Origin: Cylindrotheca closterium
Lineage: Eukaryota; Bacillariophyta; Bacillariophyceae; Bacillariales; Bacillariaceae
Length of the DNA: 64,000 nucleotides
Reading direction: 5' to 3'
NCBI GenBank assembly: GCA_933822405.4
Contig: CAKOGP040001335.1
Coordinates: forward strand, 310,001-374,000
Shown: positions 2,850-41,261 of the stretch, in pieces
Layout: every line of letters starts with the position of its first letter
How positions within the stretch are numbered: the first letter of the stretch is position 1
The notes under the pieces: generated by a model
What the model was told of the DNA's origin: nothing
Database searches by the model: none
The model's input: only the letters and a program-made list of their open reading frames with translations
Program-made: the position numbers and the translations under genes

Positions 2850-5800
2850 TTAGTCTCGATCCGCACTGAAAAAGCTCGAATCGATTGGAGAGTTGTACCA
2901 GCTGCCATCCGATACGTCTTGATCGCTTTCGACAGGTGTCAAAGTATCGTCGTTGTTGAATTTCTTATCATATGGGTCATTGGGGTTCACTGGAATGAGT
3001 TTGGTGTCTTGCGTTGTGTCGTCGGTATTGGTATTGGTATTGGTAGCTGGCGGTAGTGATGTCGAAGGACGAGTCGAATCGCTCTCGAATTGGGAAGCAG
3101 TAGGATCATTGGGATTCACTGGGGTTAGATGCACCTCCGCTTTGTCGTCAATTCTGTCTGGGAGTTTTGGGACGGCGCTCTCTTGTTCCTCAGCAATATC
3201 GGCATCGTTGCTCAATTCCTCTTCGTCAGGCGCAACATCCAACACTGGTAGTTCTTGGGTTGAGGACTCGCTGCTGCTATAACTCTGTAAAATTGGGGGA
3301 TCTGGGTTCATGGTGGTGTCACTTTTTCCTCGCGACCACCACTCACCATTGCTCGAGGAATACTTGGTCATTATGTCAACTGGTTCATCTACTGCACCAT
3401 GCGGATCCCAATGTTTTGGCGTGGCTTGAGGCCTCTGAGGAGGTGCAGCAAAGGCTGATTTTGATTCCTCTTCGAGCCCCCAATCTTGTTGGCGTATTTG
3501 CCACCATTGTACAGAATCACCACCGTCAGCATCTAGAGCATACATTTCCGGTTGGTTGGAAGATGTTGCTGTGTCGGCCGACATGATATTGTTCGGCATC
3601 TGGTCAATAGCTTTAGGCTTTGGTGAAGGTTGCTTGGAAAACGATGTCGCGCTTTGGCTGTTTAGTTCTGCGGGGGGAGCTTTGGAAGGTTGTGGCGGAG
3701 GTGATTGCTGCCTCATCTCGGGAGACTCTGACATCATCATATCGTCGTCTTTTCCCCAATCAGTGGTCACGGGTGAATTGTACCAGGAGGGGCCAGAACT
3801 TTCAGAGTCATCTGATGTTTCGAAAGACTCTTCGGTCTCCAACAATTGATCTTCAGACAGAGTCGAAGAAGATGACTCATTATCGAGTTTTGGACTATCA
3901 GGCACATACCCCTTGGAAAACGGAGAAGACGACCATTTGGTCCCAGGTTTTGGCTTACTTCCACTTGTTTCAAAGCGTGTTGTGCTTTCGCTCATGGACC
4001 CCTTCGGCGATTGCATTTTATTGGTGAAAGGAGATGACGATGATGGCTTGCTGCCTGTATTCGCCGAGCCACCAAATGTGGGTGTTCCAGTCTTTCCTAA
4101 TGGCGATGCCGATCCCTTGCTGTCTGCCTGTGCCGACCCACCAAATGCGGGTGTTCCAGTCTTTCCAAATGGCGATGCTGATCCCTTGCTGTCTGCCTTT
4201 GCCGACCCACCAAATGCGGGTTTTCCAGTCTTTCCAAATGGCGATGCTGGTCCCTGCAGCCCCTTGCTATTGAGCTTTGGAAACGGTGTAGTAGTCGCTG
4301 CTGTCTCATTGTCATCTTTGGAGCTGTCAGAATTGTCGCCCGATCCACTGAATGTGGTTGCTCCGGTCTTTCCGAATGGCGATGTTGATCCCTTCAGCCC
4401 CTTGCTATTGAGCTTTGGAAACGGTGTAGTAGTCGCTGCTGTCTCATTGTCATCGTTGGAATTGTCGCTCGATCCACCGAATGTGGGTGTTCCGGTCTTT
4501 CCGAATGGCGATGTCGAACCCTTCATCCCCTTGCTATTGAGCTTTGGAAACGGTGTAGTAGTCGCTGCTGTCTCATTGTCATCGTTGGAATTGTCGCTCG
4601 ATCCACCGAATGTGGGTGTTCCGGTCTTTCCGAATGGCGATGTGGACCCCTTCGTCCCCTTGCTATTGAGCTTTGGAAACGGTGTAGTAGTCGCTGCTGT
4701 CTCATTGTCATCTTTGGAGCTGTCGGAATTTTTGCTAGAGGCACCAAATGCGGGTGTTCTGGTCTTTCCGAAAGGCGATGTCGAACCTTTCATCCCCTTG
4801 TTATTGAGCTTTGGAAATGGCATTGTAGTTGAAGATGCACCAGAGTCTTCGTCGGGGATGTCGGACTTATGGTGTGAACCATGTGGTGATTCTATTTTGT
4901 AGAATCGAGGAGGCGAAGATGTCGATTCCTGGATTCCTTTCTTTGGCCCACCAAATTCTTTGGGCATCTCGGTCTTTCCGAACGGTGATGTAGATCCAGT
5001 CATCCCCTTGCTATTGACCTTTGGAGATGGCGTCGCAGTTGCCACCGAATCAGTGCTATCTATAAGAGTTTCTGGTTTCTTGCTGATGGCACCTTTTGAT
5101 GATTTCGGTTTGTTGAAGGGCGGAGGAGCCGACGGCTTGTTGCCAGCTTTCGACCCACCAAACGATGTCGACGTTCCGGGCGTGACTGATGCGAGAACTT
5201 TCCCAACTGAATCTCCTAAATTCGGACCTTCCGGAATGCTACTTGAAGGATCGTCAAAGCCTGTCTCACTGCATTTCAAAACCTAAGTGTTAGTATTCGA
5301 CTTCCATGTATCAGCATATCATCTCGCGACCCTTACTCACAGCTTTTTACTCACGTTTCGCCTTCTTTGGAGTCAGTCTCAAAGGCATCAGCTGTCGAAG
5401 TTTTTGGACCCTTTACATATTTGCCTGGAATAGGATCTTGGACAAACATCAAGGACAATGGACCGTTTCTGATGGAGGATGAAAAAAAGTAAGGCTTCTT
5501 CCTCTTTTGTTGTCCTTCCGACGGTGTTTTGTCCCCTTTATCATCTTGACTTTCCTCCTTGGAATCCTCTTCACTTTCACTCTCGTTTGTAGGAACGAAC
5601 GATATAGCACCAAGAGAAGCTTTTGATGAGGTTCCAGATTCCGTGGACTCTCCAGTCTTGAAGGGGGAATCATCATCGTCTGTCGAGCTTCCATTGACGG
5701 TATCACTTGTCTTTCCTATCTTAGAGATTGGGGAAATTGTTGCAACACCATTGGAACCAAATGGACGCTTACTAGATGCACCGGGGCCTATCTTCGTACC

Positions 5801-8800
5801 ACCCTCAGGACCATACGAAGCCTTGCTGAATGGACTGGAGCCTGTCTTGGATATTGTAGCACCCTTGGGTCCGAATGGACTGGTGCTAGAGGCAGAAGTA
5901 CCTTCTTTAGGGAATGGCAAAGCCGTACTAGCACCCTTGGGACCAAATGAACCCTTGCTGAACGAATTCGAGCCTGTATTTGAAACTTCAGCACCCTTTG
6001 GTGAAGATGGACTAGTGCTAGAGACAGCAGAACCTTCTTTAGAGAACGGAGAAGCAGTATTGCCACCGTTGGGACCAAAGGAACCAGTGCTGAACGAACT
6101 TGAGCCTGTCTTTGGAGCTGTAGCGCCCTTTGGTGAATATGGACTTGTACCAGAGACAGTAGAACCTGCTTTAGAGAACGGAGAAGCAGTACTAGCACCC
6201 TTGGGGCCAAAAGAACCGTTGCTGAACGAACTCGAGCCTGTCTTTGGAGCTGTAGCACCCTTGGGTGCAATAGAATCTTCTTTAGAGACCGAAGGATCGA
6301 CACTAGCACTGTTGAGACCAAATGAACCACCCTTACTGAACGAGCTCGAGCCTGTCTTTGGAGCTGTAGCACCCTTTGGTGAAAATGGACTAGTGCTAGA
6401 GACAGCAGAACCTGCTTTAGAGAACGGAGAAGCAGTACTACCACCATCGGGACCAAAGGAACCAGTACTGAACGAACCCGAGCCTGGTTTTGGAGCTGTA
6501 GCACCCTTTGGTGAAAATGGACTTGTACCAGAGACAGTAGAACCTGCTTTAGAGAACGGAGAAGCAGTACTAGCACCCTTGGGACCAAATGAACCGTTGC
6601 TGAACGAACTTGAGCCTGTCTTTGGAGCTGTAGCATCCTTGGGTGGGATGGAACGTTCCTTTGAGAATAGAGAAGCTGCGCTAGCACCCTTGGGACCGAA
6701 TGAACCCTTGCTTAACGAGCTCGAGACTGTCTTCGGAGCTGTAGCACCCTTTGGTGAAAATGGACTAGTGCTAGAGACAGCAGAACCTTCTTTAGAGAAC
6801 GGAGAAGCAGTACGACCACCATCGGGACCAAAGGAACCAGTACTGAACGAACTTGAGCCTGTCTTTGGAGCTGTAGCGCCCTTTGGTGAAAATGGACTTG
6901 TACCAGAGACAGTAGAACCTGCTTTAGAGAACGGAGAAGTAGTACTAGCACCCTTGGGGCCAGAAGAACCGTTGCTGAACGAACTCGAGCCTGTCTTTGG
7001 AGCTGTAGCACCCTTGGGTGTAATAGAATCTTCTTTAGAGACCGAAGAATCGACACTAGCACTGTTGAGACCAAATGAACCACCCTTACTGAACGAATTT
7101 GAGACTGTATTTGAAACTGTAGCACCCTTTGGTGAGAATGGACTCGTACCAGATACAGCAGAACCTTCTTTAGAGAACGGAGAAGCCGTACCAGCACCAT
7201 TAGGACCAAATGAACCACCTTTGCTGAACGAACCCAAGCCTGTTTTTGGAGCTGTAGCACCCTTTGGTGAGAATGGACTCGTGCTAGAGGCAGTGGAACC
7301 TTCATTAGAGAACGGAGAAGCTGTACTAGCACCCTTGGGACCAAATGAACCACCTTTGCTGAACGAGCTGGATTCTGAAAACGGGTTCTTTAAGCTTCCC
7401 TTGGTCATGTCCTTGTCAGAGAGACCAGTTTTTGCAGCAGAATTCGTAGAGCTGAAGGGGGAGGAAGGTGACGCATTGACTGGATTCATCCCACCGAAAG
7501 ATCCCTTTGGACTGACTGACCCAAGCGAGCCCTTGGGAGAGCTTCCATTGACCGCATCGTTCGTGGCCCCAAATTTCGGTAGTGGGCGCTCGTAAGAAGA
7601 CCTGTCTGGTATGCCCTGCCTTGTGGCGCCTGACGCTTGCTGTGCTGACAATGTTTCGGAATCTGTTTGAGTTGGCACTGACAGATTCCTGTTGAACTCT
7701 TTGATTGGCGAAAACGGTGATGGTGTTTTGTCCGTAGCGGTGAAAAACTCTGCTTTTTGCGGGGGGTTATCAGGATCGTCAAGAACAGCAATGCAATCTC
7801 GTTCATCCCATGTCTCGTCATAGATTCGAAGTGAGCGGGCAGTTGAAGCGGTTGCAAAAATGCCTACACCAGTCAAAGCGATTGCTGTAGTCGCCATTTT
7901 GTTCTTGCCAAAAATTGACGAGAGCCCGACGTCTGCTTTGAAATCAGAGGGTAGTTTTCCGCTTATCATTGATCGCACAGCAGAAACACTGGGAAATTGT
8001 GTCGACCGAAGCTTTTCCATTGTGTTTTGCATCTCTTTTTGGATCGAATCAGAGCTGGGAACATTTGGAAGCTTAGGAATCTCAAACTTTGGAGCCTCAA
8101 ATGTTGAGAGCTTGTCGGCGGCACCCTTACTAACATCCGCGAATGAAGGCAGCTCAGGAATACGGACTTTGGGAAGTTTGAGAGTACTGGTGTCGAGAAG
8201 ATTTGACGGCAGACTGCCCTTGATCATCTCGCTCACAGATGACACGATTGTTGTGTCAGCTTTGGGTATTGAGAGGGAACGTGTAATGGATACCCCTGCT
8301 GCTGACGATGAACCGATAGGCACGCCTTGTTTGCTTTCCGCCACCTTTGGTGTCATTCCGTCTATTCCTGGTTGTGGTACAGTCGTATCAGCCTTAGTAG
8401 GTGCTTCGCTGGAACCTGGTTTTGCGGCTGCAACTGATTCGCTGTTTACCTTAATCTCCGTATCCTTCACGCGTACTTCTTTGTCAGTCTTCACCTTGAC
8501 ATCTAATTCAGCTTTCGGTTTCTTCTCTTGTTCGGACTTGACACGGGCTTCTTCGTCGGCCTTGGCCTTCGCTTCTATTTCGGTCTTCGATTTCTTTTCT
8601 TGCTCGGCCTTAATTCGAACTTCCTCGTCAAACTTGGCCTTGGCCTTGGCCTCGGCCTGTTGTTTGTTTTCCTGTTCAGCCTTTATCCGAACCTCTTCAT
8701 CAGCTTTCGCTTTAGTCTCAGCTGCGGATCTTTGTTTCTGCTCTTGCTCTACTTTGGCACGGGCTTCTTCGTCCGCCGATGCTTTGGCATCTGCTTTTTC

Positions 8801-10378
8801 CTTGAGCATCTTTTCTTGTTCGGCCTTTATTCGAGCGTCCTCTTCAGTCTTAGCCATGGCGTCTGCTTGCTCCTTCAAGGTCTTTTCTTGCTCTGCCTTG
8901 ACATGGGCTTCTTCGTCCGCCTTTGCATTGGCATCTTCTTTTTCCTTCAGCATCTTTTCTTGCTCGGCCTTTATTCGAGCATCCTCTTCAGCCTTAGTTT
9001 TGGCATCTGCTTGTTCTTTCAATTTCTTTTCTTGCTCCGCTTTGATGCGAGTTTCCTCTTCGGCCTTCCGTTTCTTCTCCTGTTCCGCCTTTACTCTAGC
9101 TTCCTCTTCTAACTTGGCTTCAGCTTCCATCTTCTTCTCTTGTTCGGCCTTGATTCGAGCCTCTTCGTCAGCCTTGGCTTTTTCTTCAGCCTGCTGTTTT
9201 TTCTCTCGCTCTGCTTTTGCTTCAGCCTGCTGTTTTTTCTCTCGCTCAGCCTTTATCTTCGCTTCGTCCTCAGCTTTAGCCTTGGCCTCCTGTTCGGCCT
9301 TTCTCCTCGCTTCTTCCTCAGCCTTCTGCTTCTTTTCTTTTTCAGCCTTTATTCGAGCCTCTTCATCTTCTTTGGCTTTAATTTGTGCTTCTTCTTTCAA
9401 CTTCTTTTCCTGTTCAGCCTTTATTCGAGTATCCTCTTCAGCATTAACTTTGGCTCCAGTCTGTTGTTTCTTATCCTGTTCTGTCTGTATCCGCGATTCG
9501 TCGTCTATTTTGGCTTTCTTTGTGATATCCTGCGCTTCGGCAGTCTTTGCCTCCTGTCGAGCTTGCATTATGAGTGCTGCGGCTTCTGTCTGAGCCTGCT
9601 GTTTGATCTCAGCTTCCTGGATTTTGTTTTCTAGATATGGTAGCTCTACCTGTTCGGTTGGTGTCTGTTGCGTCGAGGACATTTGTTGCTCTTTTTGGAT
9701 GATGATTGGCTTTGCGGTAGACTCTTGATCCGGTATCGCGGCATCATTACCTGCGCCAATTAGTGCACTACCAATTAGGGCAGCAGTGCCCAACTGAAAA
9801 AAGGGAAACCCCCCGCCACCTCCGTCTTGTTTGGCTTTGTTGTCTTTGTCGTCTGCGGGTGGAGGAGGTCCACTCGGTGCCTTTGTTCCATTCTTCTTGG
9901 CCAATTTAATCAGTTTTTCTTCCTCCTTTTTGATTTTTCGATTCGACAGGGCATTTCGACCTGCAACACCAGCCACAAGAACAGATCCAGCTAGGACAGC
10001 AGTCGTTGGTTGTGGACCACCGCTAGACTCTATAGACTGTTGTCGTGCTTCAAAGTTTTGCAACGATTGCTCTAATCGCTTTTTCTTGTCGTCAAGCTGC
10101 TTTGCTTGTTTCTTCAGATTCTCTTGCACTGCATTATCATCAAGACCCGTGCTTTCCTCTATTTCGGTTGCCAGCTTTTTTCGTTCGACATCCAATTCCA
10201 CAATCTCGTTTTTTATTCGGTCTCGAACTCGAATGAAAACTCGGTCTGAGAATTCCTGTTGCTTTTCAGGAGTAGCGAATCTTGATAATGTGACAGCTAC
10301 AGGGCGGCTTCGAGGTATGAATGCACCAACCTCGCTCTCTAGCGCGAGAAAGAGGCATGCAAGAGCATAAAGTCGCAT
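2850..10378 (-). CDS. Repeat protein A: plastid-signal-like, helical and F/G/S/P-repeat giant protein
   Basis: Two exons, 10378-5355 and 5268-2850, joined across an 86 bp GTGAGT...GCAG intron that keeps the frame, giving 2480 aa. The ATG at 10378 is the first in-frame one. Order of regions: signal peptide (MRLYALACLFLALESEVGAF, AF motif at the likely cleavage site); coiled coil to about residue 125; two hydrophobic segments (about 126-145 and 195-215); a LPYLENKIQEAE motif; a charged KAEQEKK helix (about 290-650); MISGKLPS motif and a third hydrophobic segment (about 850); then 44-residue SPFSPKGATAPKT-type repeats, and in exon 2 43-residue FPKLNSKG/TSPFGKTG repeats. The end is Trp-rich, with SWYNSP twice. 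Architecture is shared with B and E. The AF motif suggests the plastid, which is inference. No known enzyme domain was found. A cell-wall/silica protein is an alternative. Confidence 0.8.
4030..4830 (-). repeat. 129-bp tandem repeats in repeat protein A exon 2
   Basis: At least five units of 43 codons. For example, the same block recurs at 4471 and 4600, exactly 129 bp apart. Each unit encodes a DDNETAATTTPFPKLNSKG segment followed by STSPFGKTG. Confidence 0.88.
5800..7380 (-). repeat. About 132-bp tandem repeats in repeat protein A exon 1
   Basis: Roughly a dozen diverged units of about 44 codons encode alternating SFGPKGAST, SPFSKAGS and SPFSPKGATAPKTG motifs. Some units are shortened (for example FGLNSASVD / KEDSI variants near 6290 and 7040), showing unequal exchange. 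The composition leaves a long antisense frame open. Confidence 0.87.
8490..9480 (-). repeat. Charged-helix coding repeats in repeat protein A
   Basis: Repeating Lys/Glu/Ala codons encode EEARIKAEQEKK-type units, predicted to form a long single alpha helix or coiled coil like the TolA stalk. Units are irregular (about 11-22 codons) and diverged. Confidence 0.85.
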
Positions 10379-10725: not shown

Positions 10726-13700
10726 TCAATTACTGCTGTTCCACTGCCAGTCTTGGTTCAGCGAACCTTTCCCTCCTCGTCCATCATCGAACCAATTGTT
10801 GGACGGCTTTGAGTCCTTGGGGCCTGACCGCCCTCTTTGTGCCGCAGTTTCAGTGTTTGGATCAATTTGATCAGATTTTGTTGTTGGTCTAGTCCCATAT
10901 GGACTGGAATAGAACGGATCCGCTTGTCTTCCTGTTGCTTGTTGCATGGTCCGTTCTTGGTTCAAATATTGTTGTTTTCGAGTTGGCACATTGCTGCTTG
11001 AACTGTTCAAATATGGATCAGGTCGGCGATAGCTTTGTGTGGGATCAACTGCTCGATTCACGTATCGTGATGTTGGCTCTGTTGCCTCTTCATCAAGTCG
11101 CCGAAAGTCCTCAACTCTACGGTTGCCGTAACTGTTTGTACTGCGCGGTCTTCTAAAATCAGCTACAGAGCCGGATTGGTTACCATTTTGATCTGGCTGG
11201 TAACTCCTGCCTGGCGGTTGTTTTGAAAAAGCACCAGGGCTGTTTGGGGAGAAATAAACTGGATTGTCAGTGTTTTGAGAAGCCATATTCTCACTTGGTG
11301 CTTGTGGTGTGGATACAGGGTTTGCACCAGCAGCCACTGGTGATGCATTGGTGCTTGTGGCTGGTTGTCCTGGTTGTGGTTCATTCTTTAGCCACTCAGC
11401 AAAGGGTGAAAATCCAGACTCATTTGTTGTGGTCTCTGAACTTGTTGGAACGGGTGGCGACCAGCTTCCGAATGGGCTATTAACATTTGCATTGCCTTGG
11501 CTTGGTACCACTTGAGGCTCTGAAGGGTTTGGAACACTTGCTGACCCAAAAGGACTGTAACTGCTCTCTTTTTCTTCAAAGGGAGCATATGATGTCTTCA
11601 CAGGACTATTTCCTGAGGTTGCTCCTTGAATTGCCCGTTTCTGTTCCACAATGTTCCTTGTTGGATCCACAGTATTTGCAACTCCAAAAGGGGCTCTTGG
11701 TGTACCTTGCGAATATGACCTTGGACCAAATGGTGAATACGAGCTCCGTACTTTGCTTGCTGGGAATTCAGCAGTATCACTCGCAGTTGTTGCTTGCTTG
11801 CTGGAATAAGTTGATCGACCAGTGAACGATGACACAGTCGCAGAAAGTGTGTCCCAAATAGACCCCTGAGGCTCTTCAGTATTTTGTTCGCCGTTGGAAG
11901 CTTCACCAGGCTGTGCTAAACCCTGCTCATTCTCCTGCAAAGAAATTGGCAACGGAGTCGATTCCATTGACGCCGTCGGGAGATCGTTGTTCAATTTTGA
12001 AGTTTCCCATGCCTTACTTGGAGCAATTGATGATTCTCCTGACACTGACGCTGATGCCCACGTTGCAGATGCTTCAGTTGCTGCATCATCTGTCTTGGAA
12101 CCTTCGAGACTTGGAGCTCCCAGATTTGCAGAAGCGTCCGCTTTTGAGGATCCTGGTGTCCACTGACCAAGTGGACTGTAGGTTGAAGATTTGGATGGCT
12201 CTGTCTTTTTCTTGGGACCAAAGGGCGAGTATGAGGACTTCACCCCTTGATTCTTTGAGGTAGACCCTTGCATGCCCGAGAGATATGAACTGGAAGAAGC
12301 TGGCAAATCTACACTTGTTGCAGGAGATTGTGGAATATCCTGCACTTGGAAGCCCAAATTTGATCCAGAAACTGATGCGCCGTCTGTTCCTTTTGAAGAT
12401 ACTCCTTCTTTTGGAGGGAAAGTTGGATTGAACTCTGCAGGCAAATCTGCTTCGGAAGTCATTGCTTCAGCAGGTCTGGAGTATGGTTTAAAGCTCTTCT
12501 TCTCAACCTCATTGGTCATTCCCTTTGGAGAGTACGGCTTAAAGTCTTTCTTTGCAACTCCTTCAGATGATTGAAACGGTGATTTCAGTCCAGTCTTTGG
12601 GGGCTGGAAGCTCTTCTTGCCGCTGGAATTGCTTTGTCCACTCAATGATTTTCCAGGACCGTTCCCAAAGGGCCTGGTAGTGATTACCTCAGCCCCATCC
12701 TTACCAGTAAATGATGTAAAGGTCTTCCGCCCGTCCGGTTTCCCAGCGATATTGGATGATCCAGCAGGTGAACCCGTCTTTGTTGGAAAGGTTGGCCCAC
12801 CAGGTGTATCCGGCCTTGACGATGGAAACGGGTCGAATGAAGCGGGTGCTCCTTTTTTCACTGTAGATGATCCTGACTTTGGAAATAGTTTGAATTCCCG
12901 TTTTCTTGCACCTGTATAGCTGTTGTTTGTTTCGGCAGGACTTTTGCCGCCAGACAGTGGTCGAAAAGATGCCGAACTGGATCCAAAATCAGAAGGAGCA
13001 GTCGATTTGGAAATTTCAAAAGCACTGGTACCCTTGACTTCACTTGTACCAGAGGACGACTTTGCCGCACTACCGGGTGATCCAAATGGCAAACCAGTCT
13101 TAGGAGATGCAAATTCATTTGCAGATGCCGAACCTGAAACACCATCTTTGGTAGCACCTAGACCAGTACTATCACCCTTAGAATCACTACCTTTTGCGCC
13201 TCCTGGCCTCCAGAAGCCCTTGGGAGCAACAGTTCCTGCTCCTGCTCCAGTGCCCTTAGAACCAGCACCTAGGTCTCTACTTTGTCCATTGGCTGGATTT
13301 GGGAAGCCGTTTGGCACTCCTGGACCACCACTCTTAAAGTCATTCGGAGAGACGGTTCCAGCTTTGGATTCCTTCATACTAGCAGTTGTGTCATTGCTTT
13401 GTCCATTGACTTGACCTGCGTCATCCTTTGGTTTTGCTGGACCACCGTCAAAGGGCTTGGGAGCAACGGTTCCAGCTTCAGCTGCCTTCGGACTAGCTCC
13501 TATATCACCACTTTGCCCATTGGCTGAGATTGGGGAACCTTGCGAGCCTCCTGGCCGCCAGAAGCCCTTGGGAGCAACAGTTCCTGCTCCTGCTCCAGTA
13601 CCCTTAGAACCAGCACCTAGATCACTACTTTGTCCATTTGCTGGATTTGGGAAACCGTTTGGCACTCCTGGACCACCACTTCCGAAGCCATTGGAAGAGA

Positions 13701-16700
13701 CGGTTCCAGCTTCAGGTTCCTTAGCACTAGCATTTACTTCGTTGTTTCGTCCATTGACTGGACTTGCAAAGCGATTAGATAGACTCGAGAAGCCCTTTGG
13801 TGCTTCTAGACCACCACTTTCAAAGCTGTCGGGGGCAACATTTTCAGCTGCCTTCGATCGAGTATCTAGGTCGCTGCTTGGTCCATTGACCGGGCGTGGG
13901 AAACCTTTCGGTACTCCTGAGCCTGCTCCAAAACCCTTGGGAGCCACACCTGGACCAATCGGAGATCCTGTTGTAGTGCCAGTGAAGAATGATGATCCTC
14001 TCTTTGGTAATCCTTTCCCAGAAGTCTCGAATGGTGACGCACCAGGCGAATCTAGTGGAGCGACTGGATCACGTCCGATGCCCTTGACACCGCCATTACC
14101 ACCATTGGTTTCATTTGAATAAGAGCTTGGAAATCCTTTCGGAGCACCCCTATCAAGTCCATTGGGTGGACTTGAACTCAGAAATCCTTGTGAACCACCT
14201 GTATCAACCGTACCAGCTCTGGGACTTTCAGCACTATCAACGCCATTGCTTTGTCCATTGACTGGACCTGGACCAGTTACAAATCCTTTGGGTACTCCTG
14301 GGCCCGCACTAAAGCCAGGCCCGAGTGGCGATCTTGTGGAGGGCCCAGTAAAGAATAGTGATTCTTCCTTTGATGAGCTTTTACTGCTAGCTCCGACAGA
14401 CGACGCACCCTTGCGAGATGATGGGAATTTGGAAGCACCAGGGTCTGTTTGAAACGGCGAGGATCCTTTAGATGCACCAGCACCAGGCCCAAATGGCGAT
14501 CTGTCACCAGCCCCAAACTTGGAAGCAAATTTGGAAGCACCAGGGTCTGTTTGAAACCGCGAGGACCCTTTAGATGCACCAGCACCAGGCCCAAATGGCG
14601 ATCTGTCACCAGACCCAAACTTGGAAGCAAATTTGGAAGCACCAGGGTCTGTTTGAAACGGCGAGGACCCTTTAGATGCACCAGCACCAGGCCCAAATGG
14701 CGATTTGTCACTAGCCCCAAACTTGGAAGCAAATTTGGAAGCACCAGGGTCTGTTTGAAACGGCGAGGATCCCTTAGGAGCACCAGATCCAGGCCCAAAT
14801 TGTGATGTGTCACTAGCCCTGAACTTGGAGAATTTGGAAGCCCCAGGACCAGTTTGGAAGGCATTATCCTTCAAAATATCCACTCCAGGATTGAAAGCCG
14901 AAGACAAAGACTTGAGATCATCTTCATCTGCTGGTCCATCGTACGAAGATATGAACTTGGGAGTCTTGGGACCCGGCGATCCCTTTGGTCCCTTAGATGT
15001 TGTTGACGGTGATGATCCTGACTCTGTTCCAGATTTATGTGGTTTTGTTTCTTCCACTGATGCTGGTTTTGATGATGCAAAAGATGACTTGGTAGCATCA
15101 TCTCCTCGTTTGCCGACCTTCGACGGTGAGGAAATCTCCTTGGGTGGTGGTGGAATGTTGAATGGGAGCTCGTCTGATTTCTTGGCTTTTGCCTTGGGCT
15201 TGGAAGTTGAAATTTTCATGGTGGCCCGAACTGGATCCCCTTTCTTCTGCTTATCATTGTCCTCCTTGTTCTTTGCAGCACCAATAGCTGTTGCTACGCC
15301 AGCAGCGGCTGCAACCCCCCCTCCAATAAATGCAAGTACCGCCGGATTGTTCGTCACCTTGGAGAGTGCGTCAGATGCACTACTGGGAGCGGTTGCTGCC
15401 ACACCTGCCGTGGGAGTAGCAATTGTAGAAGTTGCCAACTTGGAAGAAAACGGACTAGTTGCTTTGCTGGTTGGTCGCAACATGCCCTCGGCCACTCTTC
15501 TCTTGAGATCCAAGGATTCGGCTTCTTCCTTCTTTCGAGTAGCAAAGGCATTGTCTTCCTTTTTCTCCATGTCAATATTGGTGATTGGTGCTGGTGATGT
15601 AGTGGCCTTACGTTCCGCTGCCAAGGCTCGTGCTTCTGCCTCCTTGGCAGCCAATTCGGCCGATGACAAACGAGCAGTGGCCATTTTGGCTGCTTCTTCG
15701 GCAGCTTTCAATTGGGCTTGCAATGTAAGTGACGCCTGCTCCTCAGTCTTCAACATTTGCTCGAGGCGTTGGCTCTTTTGGGTTGCCTCTAAAACTGCTT
15801 TCTCCTTAGCTTGCACTTCCAATTCAGCTTTTTTGATATTCTGTTCGAGAGAGGGTAACTCGGCAGTGGCCAATGTGGCCGCCTCCCCGACAGCACGTTG
15901 GCTCTTTTGGGTGGCCTCCAGGATGGCTTTCTCCTTGGCTTGCACTTCCAATTCAGCTTTTTTTACATTTTCTTTGAGAGAGGGTAACTCATCAGTGGCC
16001 AATGTGGCCGCCTCTCCGGCAGCGCGTTGGCTCTTTTGAGTTGCTTCCAAGACGGCCTTTTCCTTGGCTTCCACCTCTAATTCAGCATTTCTGATATTTT
16101 CTTCGAGATAGGGCAGCTCAGGTTTTGGTTCAACCAGCTTCTTTTGTGCGACCTGTTGCTCGTTCTTGATGCTAATAGTTGGCATTGAGTTTCCACCCAA
16201 TGATGGCAGTGAAAATTCATCTAGAGTACCACTCAGGGTCACACCCAACGCAGCGATCCCAGTTACTGCTGCTGCTTTCTGCGCCGCCGATTGTACCGAT
16301 ATTTTCTCTAACTGCAAAGCAGCATCCAATCGAGATTGATAGGCTCGTCGTTCCATGTCCTCAATTTTGGCTTGTCGTTTTTGTAAGAAATTACGTCCAG
16401 CTACTACTCCAGCTGCTGAGACCCCCACAATCCCACCAATAGGACCAAGAAGTCCCGTCGTTGCTTTGATTAGATCCTGTGATAACAAGTTTTTGTTCGC
16501 TTGGGCAAGTTCTAGTTCAGCCAGAGCCATCTGCGGCGTTCGATTGAGTACACTCTCAGCCATGGAAGCCATCAATTCGTCTTCCAAAGCAGCCCGTTTC
16601 CTCTGAGATTCTGCCAAGGCCAGCTCCAATTCCGCCATCGAAGCATCTGTATCTATTATTTCATTGTCATTCCATTCTACCTCTTCATTCAAATTGTTAG

Positions 16701-16881
16701 TTTGCTCGCTGAGAGCAAGGCCTTCTCGTATCCGGTAAGATGATGGATCTCTGTCTTGTAAATTTGATTGCTTTTGTCCAAAAGAACTTCTTCTATCGTT
16801 TATGTGCAATCTAAAGGGCAGAAAAGCCGCTAAGCCTTCGTCCACAAGGCAAGCTATTGATAAGAGTCTCAATATCTTCAT
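10726..16881 (-). CDS. Repeat protein B: plastid-signal-like, helical and F/G/S/P-repeat giant protein
   Basis: Single exon, 2051 aa, ATG at 16881. The start MKILRLLSIACLVDEGLAAF followed by LPF is a signal peptide with an AAF cleavage motif typical of import into diatom plastids. Next come short helical blocks, hydrophobic glycine-rich segments (GIVGVSAAGVVAGRNFL and AAVTGIAALGVTLSG), three 43-residue helical repeats (LPYLEENIRNAELEVEAKEK type), another hydrophobic segment (VLAFIGGGVAAAAGVATAIG), then more than 1300 residues low in complexity: four to five 34-residue FQTDPGASKFASKFG units, repeats with NGQSNDL and GTVAPKGF, and SYSPFGP motifs. The C-terminus has NNWFDDGRGGKG. The LPYLE motif, the AF motif and the Trp tail link it to A and E. 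Function is unknown; the plastid location is inferred. Confidence 0.8.
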   Translation of the reverse strand: MKILRLLSIACLVDEGLAAFLPFRLHINDRRSSFGQKQSNLQDRDPSSYRIREGLALSEQTNNLNEEVEWNDNEIIDTDASMAELELALAESQRKRAALEDELMASMAESVLNRTPQMALAELELAQANKNLLSQDLIKATTGLLGPIGGIVGVSAAGVVAGRNFLQKRQAKIEDMERRAYQSRLDAALQLEKISVQSAAQKAAAVTGIAALGVTLSGTLDEFSLPSLGGNSMPTISIKNEQQVAQKKLVEPKPELPYLEENIRNAELEVEAKEKAVLEATQKSQRAAGEAATLATDELPSLKENVKKAELEVQAKEKAILEATQKSQRAVGEAATLATAELPSLEQNIKKAELEVQAKEKAVLEATQKSQRLEQMLKTEEQASLTLQAQLKAAEEAAKMATARLSSAELAAKEAEARALAAERKATTSPAPITNIDMEKKEDNAFATRKKEEAESLDLKRRVAEGMLRPTSKATSPFSSKLATSTIATPTAGVAATAPSSASDALSKVTNNPAVLAFIGGGVAAAAGVATAIGAAKNKEDNDKQKKGDPVRATMKISTSKPKAKAKKSDELPFNIPPPPKEISSPSKVGKRGDDATKSSFASSKPASVEETKPHKSGTESGSSPSTTSKGPKGSPGPKTPKFISSYDGPADEDDLKSLSSAFNPGVDILKDNAFQTGPGASKFSKFRASDTSQFGPGSGAPKGSSPFQTDPGASKFASKFGASDKSPFGPGAGASKGSSPFQTDPGASKFASKFGSGDRSPFGPGAGASKGSSRFQTDPGASKFASKFGAGDRSPFGPGAGASKGSSPFQTDPGASKFPSSRKGASSVGASSKSSSKEESLFFTGPSTRSPLGPGFSAGPGVPKGFVTGPGPVNGQSNGVDSAESPRAGTVDTGGSQGFLSSSPPNGLDRGAPKGFPSSYSNETNGGNGGVKGIGRDPVAPLDSPGASPFETSGKGLPKRGSSFFTGTTTGSPIGPGVAPKGFGAGSGVPKGFPRPVNGPSSDLDTRSKAAENVAPDSFESGGLEAPKGFSSLSNRFASPVNGRNNEVNASAKEPEAGTVSSNGFGSGGPGVPNGFPNPANGQSSDLGAGSKGTGAGAGTVAPKGFWRPGGSQGSPISANGQSGDIGASPKAAEAGTVAPKPFDGGPAKPKDDAGQVNGQSNDTTASMKESKAGTVSPNDFKSGGPGVPNGFPNPANGQSRDLGAGSKGTGAGAGTVAPKGFWRPGGAKGSDSKGDSTGLGATKDGVSGSASANEFASPKTGLPFGSPGSAAKSSSGTSEVKGTSAFEISKSTAPSDFGSSSASFRPLSGGKSPAETNNSYTGARKREFKLFPKSGSSTVKKGAPASFDPFPSSRPDTPGGPTFPTKTGSPAGSSNIAGKPDGRKTFTSFTGKDGAEVITTRPFGNGPGKSLSGQSNSSGKKSFQPPKTGLKSPFQSSEGVAKKDFKPYSPKGMTNEVEKKSFKPYSRPAEAMTSEADLPAEFNPTFPPKEGVSSKGTDGASVSGSNLGFQVQDIPQSPATSVDLPASSSSYLSGMQGSTSKNQGVKSSYSPFGPKKKTEPSKSSTYSPLGQWTPGSSKADASANLGAPSLEGSKTDDAATEASATWASASVSGESSIAPSKAWETSKLNNDLPTASMESTPLPISLQENEQGLAQPGEASNGEQNTEEPQGSIWDTLSATVSSFTGRSTYSSKQATTASDTAEFPASKVRSSYSPFGPRSYSQGTPRAPFGVANTVDPTRNIVEQKRAIQGATSGNSPVKTSYAPFEEKESSYSPFGSASVPNPSEPQVVPSQGNANVNSPFGSWSPPVPTSSETTTNESGFSPFAEWLKNEPQPGQPATSTNASPVAAGANPVSTPQAPSENMASQNTDNPVYFSPNSPGAFSKQPPGRSYQPDQNGNQSGSVADFRRPRSTNSYGNRRVEDFRRLDEEATEPTSRYVNRAVDPTQSYRRPDPYLNSSSSNVPTRKQQYLNQERTMQQATGRQADPFYSSPYGTRPTTKSDQIDPNTETAAQRGRSGPKDSKPSNNWFDDGRGGKGSLNQDWQWNSSN
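14431..14840 (-). repeat. 102-bp near-identical tandem repeats in repeat protein B
   Basis: GGAAGCACCA recurs at 14431, 14533, 14635 and 14737, exactly 102 bp apart. Each unit encodes 34 residues including FQTDPGASKF and SPFGPGAGASKGS. Near-identity of the DNA suggests recent expansion or gene conversion. Confidence 0.93.
15720..16130 (-). repeat. 129-bp helical repeats in repeat protein B
   Basis: Three units of 43 codons (CGTTGGCTC recurs at 15767, 15896 and 16025). Each encodes an amphipathic helical segment ending in KAVLEATQKSQR. The first unit begins with LPYLEENI, the motif also seen in A and E. Confidence 0.92.
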
Positions 16882-28205: not shown

Positions 28206-28228
28206 TTTGACTACTTTGACCAACTGAA
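28206..28228 (+). repeat. Upstream repeat of J-domain cluster, copy 3
   Basis: TTTGACTACTTTGACCAACT followed by GAA, about 180 bp before the copy 3 start. Confidence 0.7.
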
Positions 28229-28387
28229 ACCAAAATGGCCATGTGAATTTTCTGATGTTTTTGAAAAGAGCTTTTACTATATTTCAATCTGCGCAAAGCT
28301 TTGCTGATCATAAAGTCACGCTCTCTCCACTGATATCTTTCTCTACACTCTGAAACGAAAGAGAATCAGAACTGATACTTATTCAGA

Positions 28388-29308
28388 ATGGCGACCAATG
28401 AGAACAAGCTGGCTTCAATTTTGATGGCCTTCTTTAAGATCTTGTTGTTGTTGGAAAAACTCTTCGTCTCGACCTGTCCACGGCATGAAACATTCCGCGC
28501 CAACAATGAATCATCAAAGAAATCTCGAAAAGGCAGTGCTCGAAAAGGTACTCGATCATCAGGTGGTCATGGCGATGAGAAGAAGGAGGAGGAACACTTT
28601 AGCAACAGCAGCGACAACAAAGTATCATTGGAAGATGCCTTCAAGTATTTTGCAATCGATAATCACAAAAAAGCCACTCGAGAAGCTGTGAAAAAGAAGT
28701 TTCGACGGCTTAGTCTTGTGCACCACCCAGATCGGAATAATCAATCTGAAGAGAGTGTCAAAGAAATGCAGAAAATCAACCTCTTCTATGAACTATTAGA
28801 ACAGGAATTTGACAGAAGAGAAGGCAAAAACGGCCTTCACAGCGAGAACATTCCAGAGGAGGGCACCGAAGATACGACCGAACCGGATCCATGTGATCCC
28901 GATGAAAAGGAAGAAACTGGAGCTCGAAGCAACAGCTTTATTTTGTCGTCACGATACTACTTCCACCAGCTGTTGGGAAAGTATATTTGCGTCAGGTGGT
29001 ACGAGACGGCGCTTATCAGTCTTGCAGCCATATATATACAAAACGCAGACGTAGAAGTTTCATGTCGTGAGCTGTATGATTTCGTGGATTGGTGGTTTCT
29101 TTTCAAGAATATCGCATTGGAAGGTTGTGGCATCATTATCACGCGTGTTCTCAATTTGTTCGATGAGTTTGAGCCAACACCCAAGAATCCACGCTTGATA
29201 CTGATGAAAGACATGATTATCCTGTGCAGTTGTACCCTTTTGCTTCGATATGCTACACGAAATTTTGCCGAATCATCGAAAGAGGGAGCAAACATCGGGG
29301 ATCCTTGA
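28388..29308 (+). CDS. J-domain membrane protein, internally deleted copy 3
   Basis: Single exon, 306 aa, ATG at 28388 (MATNENKLASILMAFF). It keeps the N-terminal hydrophobic segment, the J domain with HPD (LVHHPDRNNQ) and the C-terminal membrane part (LLGKYICVRWYE, MIILCSCTLLLRYA). The frame jumps from DPCDPDE straight to KEETGARSNSFILSSRYYF, so the charged coil and the ankyrin-like region, about 280 residues, are missing without loss of frame. A second, smaller deletion removes part of the C-terminal membrane region. It may be a functional short co-chaperone or an early stage of decay. It is convergent with the transporter at 29425. Confidence 0.75.
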   Translation: MATNENKLASILMAFFKILLLLEKLFVSTCPRHETFRANNESSKKSRKGSARKGTRSSGGHGDEKKEEEHFSNSSDNKVSLEDAFKYFAIDNHKKATREAVKKKFRRLSLVHHPDRNNQSEESVKEMQKINLFYELLEQEFDRREGKNGLHSENIPEEGTEDTTEPDPCDPDEKEETGARSNSFILSSRYYFHQLLGKYICVRWYETALISLAAIYIQNADVEVSCRELYDFVDWWFLFKNIALEGCGIIITRVLNLFDEFEPTPKNPRLILMKDMIILCSCTLLLRYATRNFAESSKEGANIGDP

Positions 29309-29424
29309 TTACAGTCGTTTCCATCATCATAGTAGTGTGATACAGTAGTCCTAGCATCATGAATTATCTTTTTGTCTATTGTTTACATTACATCATCGTA
29401 CAGCAGTTTCCTTTCTCTTTCTAT

Positions 29425-36163: not shown

Positions 36164-39100
36164 ATGAGATTTAGTTTCGTCGTGCTTTCAATAGCTCTTC
36201 TACAGGATCATGACAACCGTACTAGTTTGGGGGTCGATGCCTTTGTGAATCCTAAACCAAGCATCACCGCACGACACCCAATAGTAGCAGTCCAGAATAC
36301 CCTCGATCCCGATGCCTCCAACTTGGACGAGGAACTCGAACTATTGATGCGACAACGAGATAAAATTGAGCAACGGTTCCAATCGAATGATGAGTTGTCA
36401 CAGCTGCTATTCCAACGGGATCAAATTGAACAACAATTACTCAAAAGCAACTTTCAAGAGGCTCCAACTACCACGGTGGCGGATCTAGCCGACACAGAGC
36501 TAGCTCGGGAAAAGTTACGGCGAGAACTAGAAGCCGCGGAAAAGCGGCGCAAATTGTTGGAAACAGAACTGGAAGCTAGCAAAAAGAAGCAAGACTTGGG
36601 CAAGGAAGAACTCCGCAAATCGCTAAAAGAAAGAGATGTCACCCGTAGCGAAGTCCGCGAGATTACGGGAGGTTCGAGTCTGTTTCCGTTAGCCAGTCTA
36701 TCCTTGGGGGCTCTTGCGCTGGGAAGGAGCGCACTTGAAAACAGACGCAGAAAAGTAGAAGGTGAGTCATGCGTCGTGATGTGATGTGATGCTTTTTTAT
36801 GTTATGTAGTTTGTGACACGACAAGGTTTTCTCATTTTGCATGAATTGTACACAGAAAATGAATATGAAGAGCTACAACGTCGATTCGACAAGGAACGAA
36901 GAGAACGAGATCGTAGGGCAGATGCAGAAAATAGAAATCTGATCTTGGGAGTGGGGGGCGCCTTTGTGGTTGGTACTGCGGCAGTGAGTGATAACGCCCT
37001 CAATTCAGCGTCATCGCTAGACAATGGCAACAGAGGCAAAGTCGAACAATCTGCTAAATCCTCCAACAACGTTGCAAAGGAAGGCTCTACGCAGTTGCCG
37101 TATCTGGAAACCAAAATCAAACAGGCTGAAATCGATGTGAAAAGGAATCGGGCACTCATTCAAGAACAAGAGGCAAAAGCCAACCAGTTGAACTTTGAAT
37201 TACAGCAACAAATGGAGAACGATAAGATTCTTGCGGATCAATTGCGAGAAGCAGAAGCGAAGTTGACCATTGAACAAAAAGCGGCGGCTGTAAAGTCGGC
37301 ACAAGAGAAGGAAATCGCTGCCGCTAAGGCAGCAGCCAAGAAGGAGGCTGAAGCCAAGGCCAAGGCTGATCTGGACAAGATTCAAGCCCAACTCAAGGCC
37401 ACTGAAACCAAGTTGAAAGAGACAGAAGTGAGATTGTCCAGCCCTGCTAACCCCGAAATTGTAAAACTCCAAGCAAAACTCAAGGAAGCCGAAGACAAGT
37501 TGAAGACGACTAGTGGTTCTACGGCAGAAGTAGCCAAACTACAAACACAATTGAAACAAGAAATGACGAAAGCCCAACAAGATCAAGTAGCAAAACTGAA
37601 AGAAGTCGAAGCCCGAAAAGTTGCTGCAGATCTGATTGAATCTGAGAGTCTAGCCCGACAACGAACAAATGCCTTGTCGAGTAATCTAGAACGACAAAAG
37701 GGTGCTACTTTAGCTACCGAAAAACTCACGCAAGAAAGAGTGAAACTAGATAAAGCCAGTGAAGATGTGAAAAAGAAGACAAACATCAAGATTGAAGCCG
37801 ACAAATTCCTGAAAGAGAAAGAAAGATCTGCCAAAAAGGCTGCCTCAGAATTGATTGCGCAAGAGAACATTGCCAACGATAGGTCTGCAACGATAGACCA
37901 GCGAACGAAAGCAGAGATTATGTACAAGGAAGCCGAAGTCAAAGTGACCAAGGAAACTGAGGCTAGGATACTGGCCGAGAAGAAAGCCAAGCAGGCCGAG
38001 GAAGACTTGAAGACAGCCACTGCCAAGAAGGCTGCACTAGAGAAATCCGTTATCAATGTTGAAAAGGAAGCCAAGAAAGCGTTGGCGGCGGCAAAGAGAG
38101 GAGGCTACAGACCATCCGCAGCGGCTCAAATGATCTCCGGGAAACGGCCTTCAGAGTTGGAGAACTCTGGTGCAAAGAGTTTTGTTCAGATCTACGAGAG
38201 AGTTGCAGTAACTGCCACTGGTATTGGACTGGCGGCGGCAATCTATGCGGTCGCGACCGGAAGGCCTCTGGGAATCATGCCCAACGATCCAAGATATCAA
38301 GGCGGCGGTATGGAGTTCTCATTCCCAAAGATGCCAAATTTTCCAAACTTTGGAGGAGGTGGCCAAGGGCTCGGACAAGGATCCAACCAAGGATTTGCCC
38401 CGTTTTCCAAAAGCAACTCCAACGGTGGATTTGGCGGTGCAACTAATGCCAGCGGCGGCGGATTTGGAGGAAGTCCAAATGGCAGTGGTCTAGGAAGCGG
38501 TGGTGGTTTTGGAGGCGGCGGAGCCTCAGGCTTTGGTGCAGGAAGCACGTCAAAGGGGGGGTTCGGAGGAGGCGGTGGAATGGGCGGATCTGCTAAAGGA
38601 GGCTTTGGAAGTGGATCATCGAGCCTCGGCGGATCAAGCACCTCGAAGGGTGGTTTTGGCGGAGGTGGAAGCACTTCCAACGGAAGCTTTGGAGGCGGAT
38701 CATCAAGCTTTGGCGGATCCAGTACTTCAAAGGGAGGATTCGGGGGTGCAGGTGGGCTCGGAGCCGGTGGAACACCCAGCTTTGGAGGCGGATCAAGTAC
38801 ATCGAAGGGTGGTTTTGGCGGTGGATCTTCAAGCTTCGGAGGAGCAAGTACTACCTCGAAGGGAGGGTTCGGTGCTGCAGGGGGGCTCGGAGCCGTTGGA
38901 ACACCTGGCTTTGGAGGCGGATCGAGCACCTCAAAGGGTAGTTTTGGAGGTGGAGCGTCAAGCTTCGGTGGATCCAGTACTGCCTCGAAGGGAGGATTTG
39001 GAAGTACTGGTGGCGCAGGTGGGCTCGGAGCCGGTGGAACACCCAGCTTTGGAGGCGGATCAAACACCTCGAAGGGCAGTTTTGGAGGCGGAGCGTCAAG

Positions 39101-41261
39101 CTTCGGAGGAGGAGCAAGTACCTCGAAGGGAGGATTTGGAGGTTCAAGCGGGCTCGGAAGCTCGTCCAAGGGAGGCTTGGGAGGTGGAGCATCAAGCTTT
39201 GGTGGATCAAGCACTTCAAACAGTGGGTTTGGCAGCTCATCATCCTCTAAGAGCGGTGAGAAGAAGGGCCTTTTCGGTGGTCTTTTTGGTGGTGGCTCGA
39301 AAAACTCTGCTGGTAATGACCAGAGCAATGGAGGCTTTGGGGGCGGATCGAGCACCTCGAAGGGCGGATTTGGAGGTGGAGCGTCAAGCTTCGGTGGATC
39401 CAGTACTACCTCGACGGGAGGATTTGGAAGTGCTGGTGGTGCAGGTGGGCTCGGAGCCGGTGGAACACCCAGCTTTGGAGGCGAATCAAGCACCTCGAAG
39501 GGCAGTTTTGGAGGCGGAGCGTCAAGCTTCGGAGGAGGAGCAAGTACCTCGAAGGGAGGATTTGGAGGTTCAGGTGGGCTCGGAAGCTCGTCCAAGGGAG
39601 GCTTGGGAGGTGGAGCATCAAGCTTTGGTGGATCAAGCACTTCAAACAGTGGGTTTGGCAGCACATCATCCTCTAAGAGCGGTGAGAAGAAGGGCCTTTT
39701 CGGTGGTCTTTTTGGTGGTGGCTCGAAAAACTCTGCTGGTAATGACCGGAACACTGGAGGCTTTGGGGGCGAATCGAGCACCTCGAAGGGCGGATTTGGA
39801 GGTGGAGCGTCAAGCTTCGGCGGATCCAGTACTACCTCGACGGGAGGATTTGGTAGTGCTGGTGGTGCCAGTGGGCTCGGTTTTGGAGGCTCTGGTGGCG
39901 GTCTCGGAAGTAAAGGCAGCACATCATTTGGCGGTGGCTCCAGCAAAGCAGGCTTCGGTGCTGGCGGTGGCTTAGGAAGCAAAAGTGGAGCCGGTGGGCT
40001 CGGAGCGGGTGGTACACCCAGTTTTGGAAGCTCTGGTGGTGGACTGGGCAGCAAAGGCAGCACGTCATTCGGTGGCGGGTCAAGCACTGGAGGATTTGGC
40101 TCTGGTGGCGGCCTAGGAAGCAAAAGTGGAGCCGGTGGGCTCGGAGCGGGTGGTACACCCAGTTTTGGAAGCTCTGGTGGTGGACTGGGCAGCAAAGGCA
40201 GCACATCATTCGGTGGCGGGTCAAGCACTGGAGGATCTAGCTCTGTTGGCGGACTAGGAAGTAAAAGGTCCGTTCCAGGCAGCACATCGCCCGGGGGTAG
40301 CTCGAGCACAGCAGGGTTTGGCTCTAGTGGTGGCCTTGGAAGTAAGGGATCTGTTCCAGGGAGCACTGGAGGATTTGGCTCTGGCGGTGGGCTGGGAAGT
40401 AAAGGCTCTGTTCCGGGTAGCACATCGTTCGGCGGCAGCTCAAACACAGCTGGCTTTGGCTCCGGTGGCGGAGTTGGAAGTAAGGGATCTGGCGGCACAG
40501 CAGGGTTTGGCTCTGGTGGTGGCCTGGGCAGCAAAGGTTCGGTCCCAGGAAGCACATCCTTCGGTGGTGGCTCTAGCATCGGAGGGTTTGGAGCCAATGC
40601 TGGTGCTAATGGTTCTACAAACGGTTTCGGTTCTAATGGCGGTCCGAATGGTTCTGGCCTCGGTTCCAATAGCGCTGCAAATGGTTCGTCTGCTCTTGGA
40701 GGAGGGCTGTCAACATTTGGCGCATCGGGCACCAGTTCAAGCGCTTTTGGGGGGTCGAATATGAATGGTAGATCAGCGCCAGGGGCGTCATCAACTTCTG
40801 CGTACTCAAACTATGCTGGGGAGCTACAGAATGCTCAAGTCAGTCAAAGTGACAACTGGTACAATGATCGTGGCCAGTATCAGAATTATGGATCGAATCC
40901 TTCCTCACAAGCAACTGTTGACCCTTCAGTCTTTCAGCAAGAGCAGTCGTCGTCTTGGTTTGACAACCGAAAAGGGACGCAATCAATGATGGAGGACACA
41001 AGTGCTAGGTCAGGAGCGACGTATTTTCAACCGAATCAGCCCCAAATGAATCAAGACATGTACTCCTCTTACAATGCCAACGACGCAAACGGTTCATGGT
41101 TCAATGATAGGAATGGGAGTGGGTCACGGTCGATGATGATGGAAGATACTAGCCAAACGGGAAGGGATCCGTCATACAACAATGGATTTAGCCAAGGTGC
41201 TGAATATGGGGATACATCGAATCAGTTTCAATCTCAACAGAATTGGTTTGATGGAAGATAA
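36164..41261 (+). CDS. Repeat protein E: plastid-signal-like, coiled-coil and Gly/Phe-repeat giant protein
   Basis: Two exons, 36164-36761 and 36856-41261, with a 94 bp GTGAGT...CACAG intron, giving 1667 aa. The N-terminus MRFSFVVLSIALL is hydrophobic and a VDAFVNP motif follows at about residue 25. Helical repeats come next (ELLMRQRDKIEQRF, LLFQRDQIEQQLL, REKLRRELEAAEKRRKLLE), a Leu/Gly hydrophobic stretch, LPYLETKIKQAE, and a coiled coil to about residue 600. AQMISGKRPSELEN and a hydrophobic helix (VTATGIGLAAAIYAVATG) lead into about 800 residues of GGFGGGSSTSKGGFGG repeats. The C-terminus has four Trp motifs: NWYNDR, SWFDNR, SWFNDR and NWFDGR at the very end. The MISGK-PS, LPYLE and Trp motifs tie it to A and B. 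Plastid location is inferred; function unknown. Confidence 0.82.
38400..40680 (+). repeat. Gly/Ser/Phe tandem repeats of repeat protein E
   Basis: Diverged short repeats encoding SSFGGSSTSKGGFGG and GLGSKGSTSFGGG types. It includes a large direct duplication of 426 bp: the block encoding SGEKKGLFGGLFGGGSKN occurs at 39251 and again at 39677. Another nearly identical unit recurs at about 39990 and 40130. A long antisense Pro-rich frame is an artefact of this composition. Confidence 0.9.

Follow-up and report, generated by a model that had tools for sequence, protein, structure and literature searches.

The stretch analysed here, 64,000 nucleotides of the genome of the pennate diatom Cylindrotheca closterium (C135:310001-374000, the window), contains three giant genes, A, B and E. 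A fourth gene, G, enters it from the left edge, and a relative of the three, F, lies on another contig. The plastid address tags, membrane-type segments and repeated sticky motifs of the three giant proteins, together with parts that F shares with proteins of the 'Diatom pyrenoid component 2' (DPC2) type, make this group promising as scaffold candidates for the compartment in which carbon is fixed. The organism is photosynthetic, with 66 matches to the chlorophyll-binding family PF00504 in the genome, exon pieces counted. Gene A (2850..10378, minus strand) consists of the exons 10378..5355 and 5268..2850, separated by one GT-AG intron, and encodes 2480 residues. Gene B (10726..16881, minus strand) has no intron and encodes 2051 residues, and gene E (36164..41261, plus strand) has the exons 36164..36761 and 36856..41261, one GT-AG intron and 1667 residues. 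Open frames, splice sites and spliced translations confirmed these three genes and their lengths as an earlier sequence-only reading had proposed them. Neither B nor any of the two exons each of A and E gave a Pfam match over cut-off.

The heads of A, B and E are built in the same order. A signal with an A|F-type cleavage motif (by inspection VGA|FIP in A, LAA|FLP in B and VDA|FVN in E) is followed by a helical stretch, a hydrophobic segment with GRNxLxNRxxK, a second hydrophobic segment and LPYLExxIxxAE; from there a long coil leads to the third hydrophobic segment and on to the tail. According to hydropathy, the first two segments occupy residues 126-144 and 191-209 of A (9752..10003, minus strand), where alignment and shuffles also single out the block GRNALSNRKIKK that follows segment 1, residues 143-161 and 203-221 of B (16219..16455, minus strand), and residues 173-191 and 227-245 of E (36680..36992, plus strand), with the intron in between. 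The third segment spans residues 828-846 of A (7841..7897, minus strand), 515-533 of B (15283..15339, minus strand) and 649-667 of E (38202..38258, plus strand), and is preceded by MISGKLPS in A and by MISGKRPS in E.

BLAST of the heads, run with composition statistics and without SEG, gave E-values of 6e-8 for A-B, 1.7e-7 for A-E and 3e-5 for B-E; whole-protein comparisons with SEG on were weaker (3e-5, 0.015 and 0.018). For all three pairs the observed head score was reached by none of 500 full-sequence shuffles and none of 500 local (20-residue) shuffles. The block after segment 1 was reached by no full shuffle in 1000 for any pair and by 4, 25 and 0 of 1000 local ones for A-E, A-B and B-E. 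The layout described by the sequence-only reading, including LPYLE, the hydrophobic segments and the plastid-type signal (the latter judged by inspection), is confirmed by these alignments, hydropathy profiles and shuffles, and the heads establish the homology of the three proteins. Its 'helical repeats' proved to be low-complexity coil, and the coil directly after LPYLE is indistinguishable from shuffles (38 and 64 of 1000 reach the score for A-B, 799 and 743 for A-E). The MISGK-PS motif ascribed to A and E is common to both beyond chance (0 of 1000 full shuffles, 1 of 1000 with 12-residue windows); against B the same stretch scored no better than chance, with 272 and 404 of 1000 shuffles reaching the score. 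Searching the genome for MISGK at the DNA level gave no information (284 matches versus 88 in the reversed control), and a structure model of the head, with a predicted local distance difference test score (pLDDT) of 64 and a predicted template modelling score of 0.22, is too weak for use.

The low-complexity tails comprise residues 931-2480 of A (2850..7588, minus strand), 561-2051 of B (10729..15201, minus strand) and 691-1667 of E (38328..41258, plus strand). They are 977-1550 residues long, rich in Phe, Ser, Gly and Lys and free of Cys, and contain 85, 79 and 71 Phe at median gaps of 15, 13 and 11. The Phe motif differs in type, being SPF.K in A, SPFG and YSPF in B and GFGG in E, where 61 of the 71 Phe stand in FG, compared to 30 FG in the tail of A and 17 in that of B. 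Over whole proteins SPF[GSAEQT] occurs 27 times in A, 14 times in B, twice in F and 24 times in G, with local-shuffle (60-residue) means of 1.25, 0.83, 0.07 and 0.69 and none of 300 shuffles reaching the count in any of them. Spacing of the F..KG type is enriched in A (20, shuffle mean 4.49) and in G (18, mean 3.85).

Towards their ends the tails carry tryptophan motifs, as the sequence-only reading had noted. A has WYNSP at 3771..3785 (Trp codon at 3785) and at 2886..2900 (Trp codon at 2900), B has WFDDG at 10780..10794 (Trp codon at 10794), all on the minus strand, and E has four within 40857..41258 (plus strand): NWYNDR (Trp 40857), SWFDNR (40956), SWFNDR (41097) and NWFDGR (41244). The counts of W[FY][DN] near the C terminus, 2, 1 and 4 in A, B and E, were reached by 2, 80 and 0 of 2000 shuffles of the end part; the single motif of B is weak alone. 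Across all stop-to-stop frames of at least 100 residues in the window (38,200 residues) the pattern occurs nine times, and A, B and E account for seven of these. With the wider pattern W[FY][DNSE] the counts are 2 in A, 1 in B, 4 in E and 12 in G, against local-shuffle means of 0.21, 0.06, 0.19 and 0.39, and were reached by 5, 17, 0 and 0 of 300 shuffles. The SPF and Trp counts are about 10-35 times the local-shuffle means in A, B, E (Trp) and G. As a genome-wide code the C-terminal motif TGGTWYRAYRRNMGNTRR was rejected, with 13 matches versus 25 for the reversed pattern. Among the frames matched, that of E (505 codons in the piece examined) alone has four motifs and ends there; the others are 7 to 188 codons long, and one 49-codon frame has two. 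Two such motifs 70-100 nucleotides apart were found in E only (control 0), a pattern so narrow that it misses G and its 12 W[FY][DNSE], and it is therefore no proof that the motif is confined to E.

Gene G, which the sequence-only reading had missed, adjoins A. Its N-terminal part (1..719, minus strand) encodes a signal peptide and the start of a phosphoenolpyruvate (PEP) mutase-family domain, and the last codon lies left of the window at contig position 302713. The open frame has 2713 codons, giving 2669 residues from the ATG (719..1 of the window and L055:2713-9999, both minus strand). The domain scores 88.2 bits with PF13714 (cut-off 31.5) and matches the petal death protein in the PDB at E 1.2e-28; since its active-site loop reads KRCTY where the petal death protein has KKCGH, enzyme activity is uncertain. 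G also has coils, its last 2209 residues are Cys-free, and its SPF tail and Trp motifs are encoded beyond the edge of the window. No LPYL head is present, hydropathy shows the signal segment only, and BLAST with SEG against A, B and E gave nothing below 0.14, so that motifs are shared with these proteins and common ancestry is not proven.

F was first seen as a 594-codon frame on C257; an upstream exon, joined in frame by a splice placed by inspection, extends it to 737 residues. Its VSA|F signal is followed by a hydrophobic stretch and two LPYL motifs; a coil then leads to another hydrophobic stretch and a tail, and an I29-like domain stands at the end. The A|F-type motif in A, B, E and F, as read by inspection, supports targeting to the plastid. 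In searches of the 47.6 Mb genome with the head of B as query the E-values were 0.0135 for A and 0.054 for F; with the head of A they were 0.063 for B and 0.53 for F. The score of the F head against A and against B was reached by none of 500 full and none of 500 local shuffles; against E it is borderline, with 0 and 2 of 500. The last hydrophobic stretch of F matches B (0 of 500) and not A (202 of 500) or E (38 of 500). A, B, E and F form one family by virtue of a homologous head with LPYL, the E-F link being borderline, and the proposed family of three genes holds for A, B and E and is larger than was noted. Weak matches were also obtained with the A head on C13 (E 0.53) and with F on C46 (E 0.62). 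Whole B found only itself in the genome, and the best E-value of B against PDB sequences was 0.97; the coil of E found itself and two weak matches that look unrelated (L031 and L032), and none of A, B and F.

The connection with the pyrenoid runs through the end of F. The I29-like domain scores 15.9 bits in Pfam against a cut-off of 24.4, and F matches 14 further places in the genome at E <= 0.1, six of them below 1e-6 and all 14 within its I29-like part. This domain is 46-49% identical to the four best matches (E 1.1e-10 to 5.4e-10), among them L036 (48%), a protein of 586 residues that combines an I29-like domain with nine SYLD-like motifs and a single YTPF. The search with L036 listed 18 proteins (17 relatives and itself), every one of them pre-annotated as PF25195, the DPC2 family. 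The proteins at the loci matched by F begin with signals such as SAVAF, ESAAF, VSSF, SNGF and VQAF. F itself has two SYLD-like motifs (shuffle mean 0.02) and two [ST]Y[STA]PF motifs (mean 0.00); B has four of the latter (mean 0.01), and A and E have neither kind. Y[STA]PF occurs in 9 of the 18 listed proteins, that is in 9 of the 10 numbered P0004-P0013 and in none of the eight numbered P0014-P0021, and HWMD stands near the C terminus of all ten of P0004-P0013, a likeness to W[FY][DN] that is only three residues deep. Another SYLD-repeat gene, L066, exceeds the DPC2 cut-off with 80.4 versus 70 bits, summed across seven stretches. A DPC2-like structure model (pLDDT 40) is too weak for use.

A, B and E resemble DPC2 in having a signal with an F-type motif and a low-complexity multivalent tail, with SYLD-like motifs entering the family via F, which has Y[ST]PF and the I29-like domain in common with L036. 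They differ from DPC2 in their hydrophobic segments, LPYLE and long coils, and no DPC2 match was found in B, in either exon of A or E, or in exon 2 of F. The pyrenoid, named as a hypothesis in the sequence-only reading, gains indirect support through the I29-like domain and the SYLD-like and Y[ST]PF motifs of F that recur in L036; a direct DPC2 match of A, B or E did not emerge.

In view of the above, A, B, E and F could be multivalent scaffolds anchored in a plastid membrane, most likely those of the pyrenoid, with G as a client or co-scaffold. We put this reading forward tentatively, giving it close to an even chance. Membrane-type chains with stickers, an adjacent enzyme with the same stickers and a relative with DPC2-type parts would fit a plastid condensate that is tied to membranes. 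After predicted import and signal cleavage, the hydrophobic segments of the head, of which A, B and E have three each, probably insert into and anchor the protein in a plastid membrane, most likely the thylakoid. The coil may space or oligomerise the chains, and the low-complexity, presumably disordered tail of A, B and E carries 71-85 Phe plus one to four W[FY][DN] near its end. Membrane-tethered A, B, E and F could in this way join a condensate in the stroma, which is most likely the matrix of the pyrenoid, to its supplying membranes. G, as a PEP-mutase-family enzyme with the same SPF and Trp motifs, may be recruited by the same code as a client or co-scaffold. The multivalence assumed in the scaffold idea of the sequence-only reading is borne out by SPF and Trp motifs above shuffled expectation; condensation itself we infer.

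A bolder version of this reading, which we regard as speculative and would not expect to hold in full, is a modular sticker code for the Cylindrotheca pyrenoid. In such a code A, B and E would tether membranes to the matrix, Phe stickers of the SPF and FG kinds would drive condensation, and W[FY][DN] would do in the red lineage what the Rubisco-binding motif does in the green one, holding a partner common to all three, perhaps Rubisco. F would bridge to DPC2-type scaffolds with I29 and SYLD, and G would bring in a metabolic enzyme. As much as 20% of global CO2 fixation is attributed to diatoms (PMC10288592). Should the five proteins indeed build or tether the pyrenoid, they would supply a testable parts list that comprises anchors in the membrane, sticker motifs, a Trp motif that is a candidate for a shared one, a DPC2 bridge and an enzyme client; if they act elsewhere in the plastid, they would still be a set of condensate-type scaffolds that escape ordinary homology searches.

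Several observations weigh against a pyrenoid scaffold. Since A, B and E have neither an I29 match nor a SYLD-like motif, the link to DPC2 is via F alone. L036 scores 62.1 bits and so stays under the DPC2 cut-off of 70 of the model used, and none of 13 matches passed the cut-off when the genome was searched with stretches scored singly (best 30.6 bits). The link rests on a Pfam name, and searches of the literature library covered turned up no publication on DPC2. The pattern W[FY][DNSE] is absent from F and from the six other DPC2/I29-type proteins counted. Nor is the sticker repertoire uniform: counted over whole proteins, SPF is absent in E and YSPF in A and E, and F..KG-type spacing is unenriched in B (2, mean 3.80) and E (1, mean 4.96) and unclear in F (1, mean 0.21; 53 of 300 shuffles). 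The signal core of E falls under the hydropathy threshold passed by A and B. An odd number of hydrophobic segments would place head and tail on opposite sides of the membrane, and a stromal tail then requires a lumenal head. In G, Leu rather than Phe follows the likely cleavage site (S|L), and the protein may be non-plastid. A homology search outside the genome, the check proposed by the sequence-only reading, gave no relative of A or B among the approximately 7,990 candidates with most shared words that were scored: residues 1-560 of B matched B only, and residues 1-300 of A matched nothing. As the latter failed to match even A, that protein is seemingly absent from the searched database, and the searches do not show that other diatoms lack orthologues of the three proteins. 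Finally, the Phaeodactylum tricornutum linker PYCO1 has the motifs KWSPRGGS and AAEWGSMNQ, and the Trp motifs found here match neither.

Comparison with known pyrenoid proteins shows how far the likeness goes. The green Rubisco-binding motif is of the type [DN]W[RK]xx[LIVA], and none of the sequence contexts around Trp in A, B and E shows [DN]W[RK]. These contexts contain no WSPR and no EW.SMN either, the nearest being KWSSSPF in A and QWTPGS and SWSPPV in B. With the PYCO1 and green motifs both missing, the comparison is one of working principle only. That principle may be akin to the one of Chlamydomonas RBMP2, in which membrane segments are combined with C-terminal Trp motifs that grip the matrix; no homology is claimed. 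A, B and E each have three hydrophobic segments, which may insert into a membrane, and W[FY][DN] is present four times in E, twice in A and only once in B. The differences from RBMP2 are that no rhodanese domain was found in A, B and E, that their Trp motif is W[FY][DN], and that RBMP2 belongs to the green lineage with a different Rubisco. SAGA1 and MITH1 are reported to draw membranes through the pyrenoid matrix (PMC13345187, PMC11649565). PYCO1 resembles A, B and E in its low-complexity tandem repeats with aromatic stickers, its Trp motifs and its plastid signal; it differs in having about 590 residues, most of them disordered, and no head of the A/B/E kind is described for it (PMC10288592). 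Its Trp motifs are reported there to bind both Rubisco subunits, and its authors mention that variations of the helix bound to the large subunit occur in other proteins and that they found no PYCO1 homologue in other sequenced algae (PMC10288592).

Plastid-type signals, hydrophobic segments and tails of this kind would equally suit scaffolds that condense through their Phe tails at a plastid site other than the pyrenoid, such as the girdle lamella, the inner envelope, the division machinery or the nucleoid. The pyrenoid evidence being indirect, through F only, we take this alternative seriously while considering it rather unlikely, in view of the I29-like domain and two motif types that F shares with L036, whose listed relatives carry the DPC2 annotation. 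A different objection is that the proteins have no common partner and are simply fast-evolving, with tails that lengthen through tandem duplication while selection is weak, and with Trp motifs that are incidental. Tandem repeats are indeed frequent in the tails, A-E and B-E show modest similarity once SEG masking is applied, and the single Trp motif of B could be chance. The ratio of nonsynonymous to synonymous differences (pN/pS) between repeat copies is 0.75 in E and 0.70 in B, where one of four units is out of register; the 378-nucleotide units of A give 0.99, with the register broken by indels, and a 69-nucleotide pair in A has three differences, none synonymous. However, pN/pS is 0.29 in the coil of A and 0.41, 0.41 and 0.60 in its 132-nucleotide units, and SPF and Trp motifs are enriched over local shuffles; we consider this explanation improbable.

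Locations outside the plastid fare worse. Silaffins and cingulins have a signal peptide and Ser/Gly/Lys-rich low complexity with aromatics, as do A, B and E, and the tails recall silaffin peptides; a von Willebrand-type (VWD) gene at 43740-45206, with weaker mucin-type pieces alongside, adjoins E. The silica or girdle-band protein that the sequence-only reading offered as a competing idea, and secreted wall or adhesion proteins in general, are nevertheless disfavoured. The silaffin hallmark, the pentalysine cluster KxxKxxKxxKxxK, has no occurrence in any of the three tails, and R.L is found 0 times in the tail of E, though once in A and three times in B. The A|F motif of their signals and the hydrophobic segments beyond the signal, on either side of the long coil, also set A, B and E apart from silaffins and cingulins, and we consider a cell-wall role quite improbable. 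Even less probable, in our judgement, are FG-nucleoporin-like proteins of the nuclear envelope or chloroplast endoplasmic reticulum, with a hydrophobic anchor and an FG tail. Such proteins have Cys-free Phe-Gly-rich tails, like those of A, B and especially E. They do not share the plastid-type signal with A|F, the further segments, the coil and the Trp motifs; no nucleoporin Pfam match was found in A, B and E, and F shares domains and motifs with proteins that have plastid signals.

Exon 1 of F carries, in addition, an unnamed domain of 55 residues, W..DG.I.G...F..G..ITTS......VV.T.SGS.Y.L (W..TTS..SGS). With a copy from C112 as query the genome gave 12 matches at E <= 1, the query itself included, 8 of them below 1e-3 and F at 1.5e-4. 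Two frames with this domain had no Pfam match, and a PDB sequence search with a two-copy frame returned coil matches only. The best PDB match of the profile, Colicin-Ia at E 0.015, was not accepted as real, and the idea that the domain is a diatom pyrenoid shell fold received no support from the PDB search. On C112 the domain comes after coils and Phe/Pro/Lys tails, close to I29-like exons, and the interval C112:762501-772400 (L050) holds a cluster of exons in which such domains, coils and tails occur along with I29-like sequence and signals of the plastid type.

I29-like sequence also occurs in other giant frames of the genome. On C101 (498,055 bases) a frame of 1137 codons (L051:2090-5500, minus strand) opens with a signal of the VQAF type and contains numerous I29-like repeats, with five stretches scored, and no peptidase match. 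Two giant frames with signal peptides (L049:2-5362, minus strand, and L052:5168-9229, plus strand) join I29-like sequence to lipoyl or E3-binding stretches: three lipoyl-type stretches (PF00364) are found in one such frame, with no Lys in ESDTF by eye, and three E3-binding stretches (PF02817) in another. A protein of 1346 residues on C329 (L053:1364-5452, minus strand) has an ESAAF signal, I29-like domains, one hydrophobic segment and three Trp-Trp motifs, EWWDGSG, DWWEGG and DWWGSG, that recall EWWSRG in A.

Between B and E the window contains two similar basic, Ser/Lys-rich proteins (17268-20033 and 20537-23038, both on the minus strand), with no evident signal peptide and no Pfam match; they have repeated [ER]WSR[NVL], a C-terminal coil and GWLFG near the end. 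These are followed by a cluster of three frames with DnaJ domains on the plus strand (23614-24447, 26203-28125 and 28388-29305). Beside E, at 41637-45206 on the minus strand, the VWD domain over cut-off (43740-45206) is accompanied by PT-repeat and mucin C8-like pieces below cut-off, and the whole is perhaps one adhesion-type gene.

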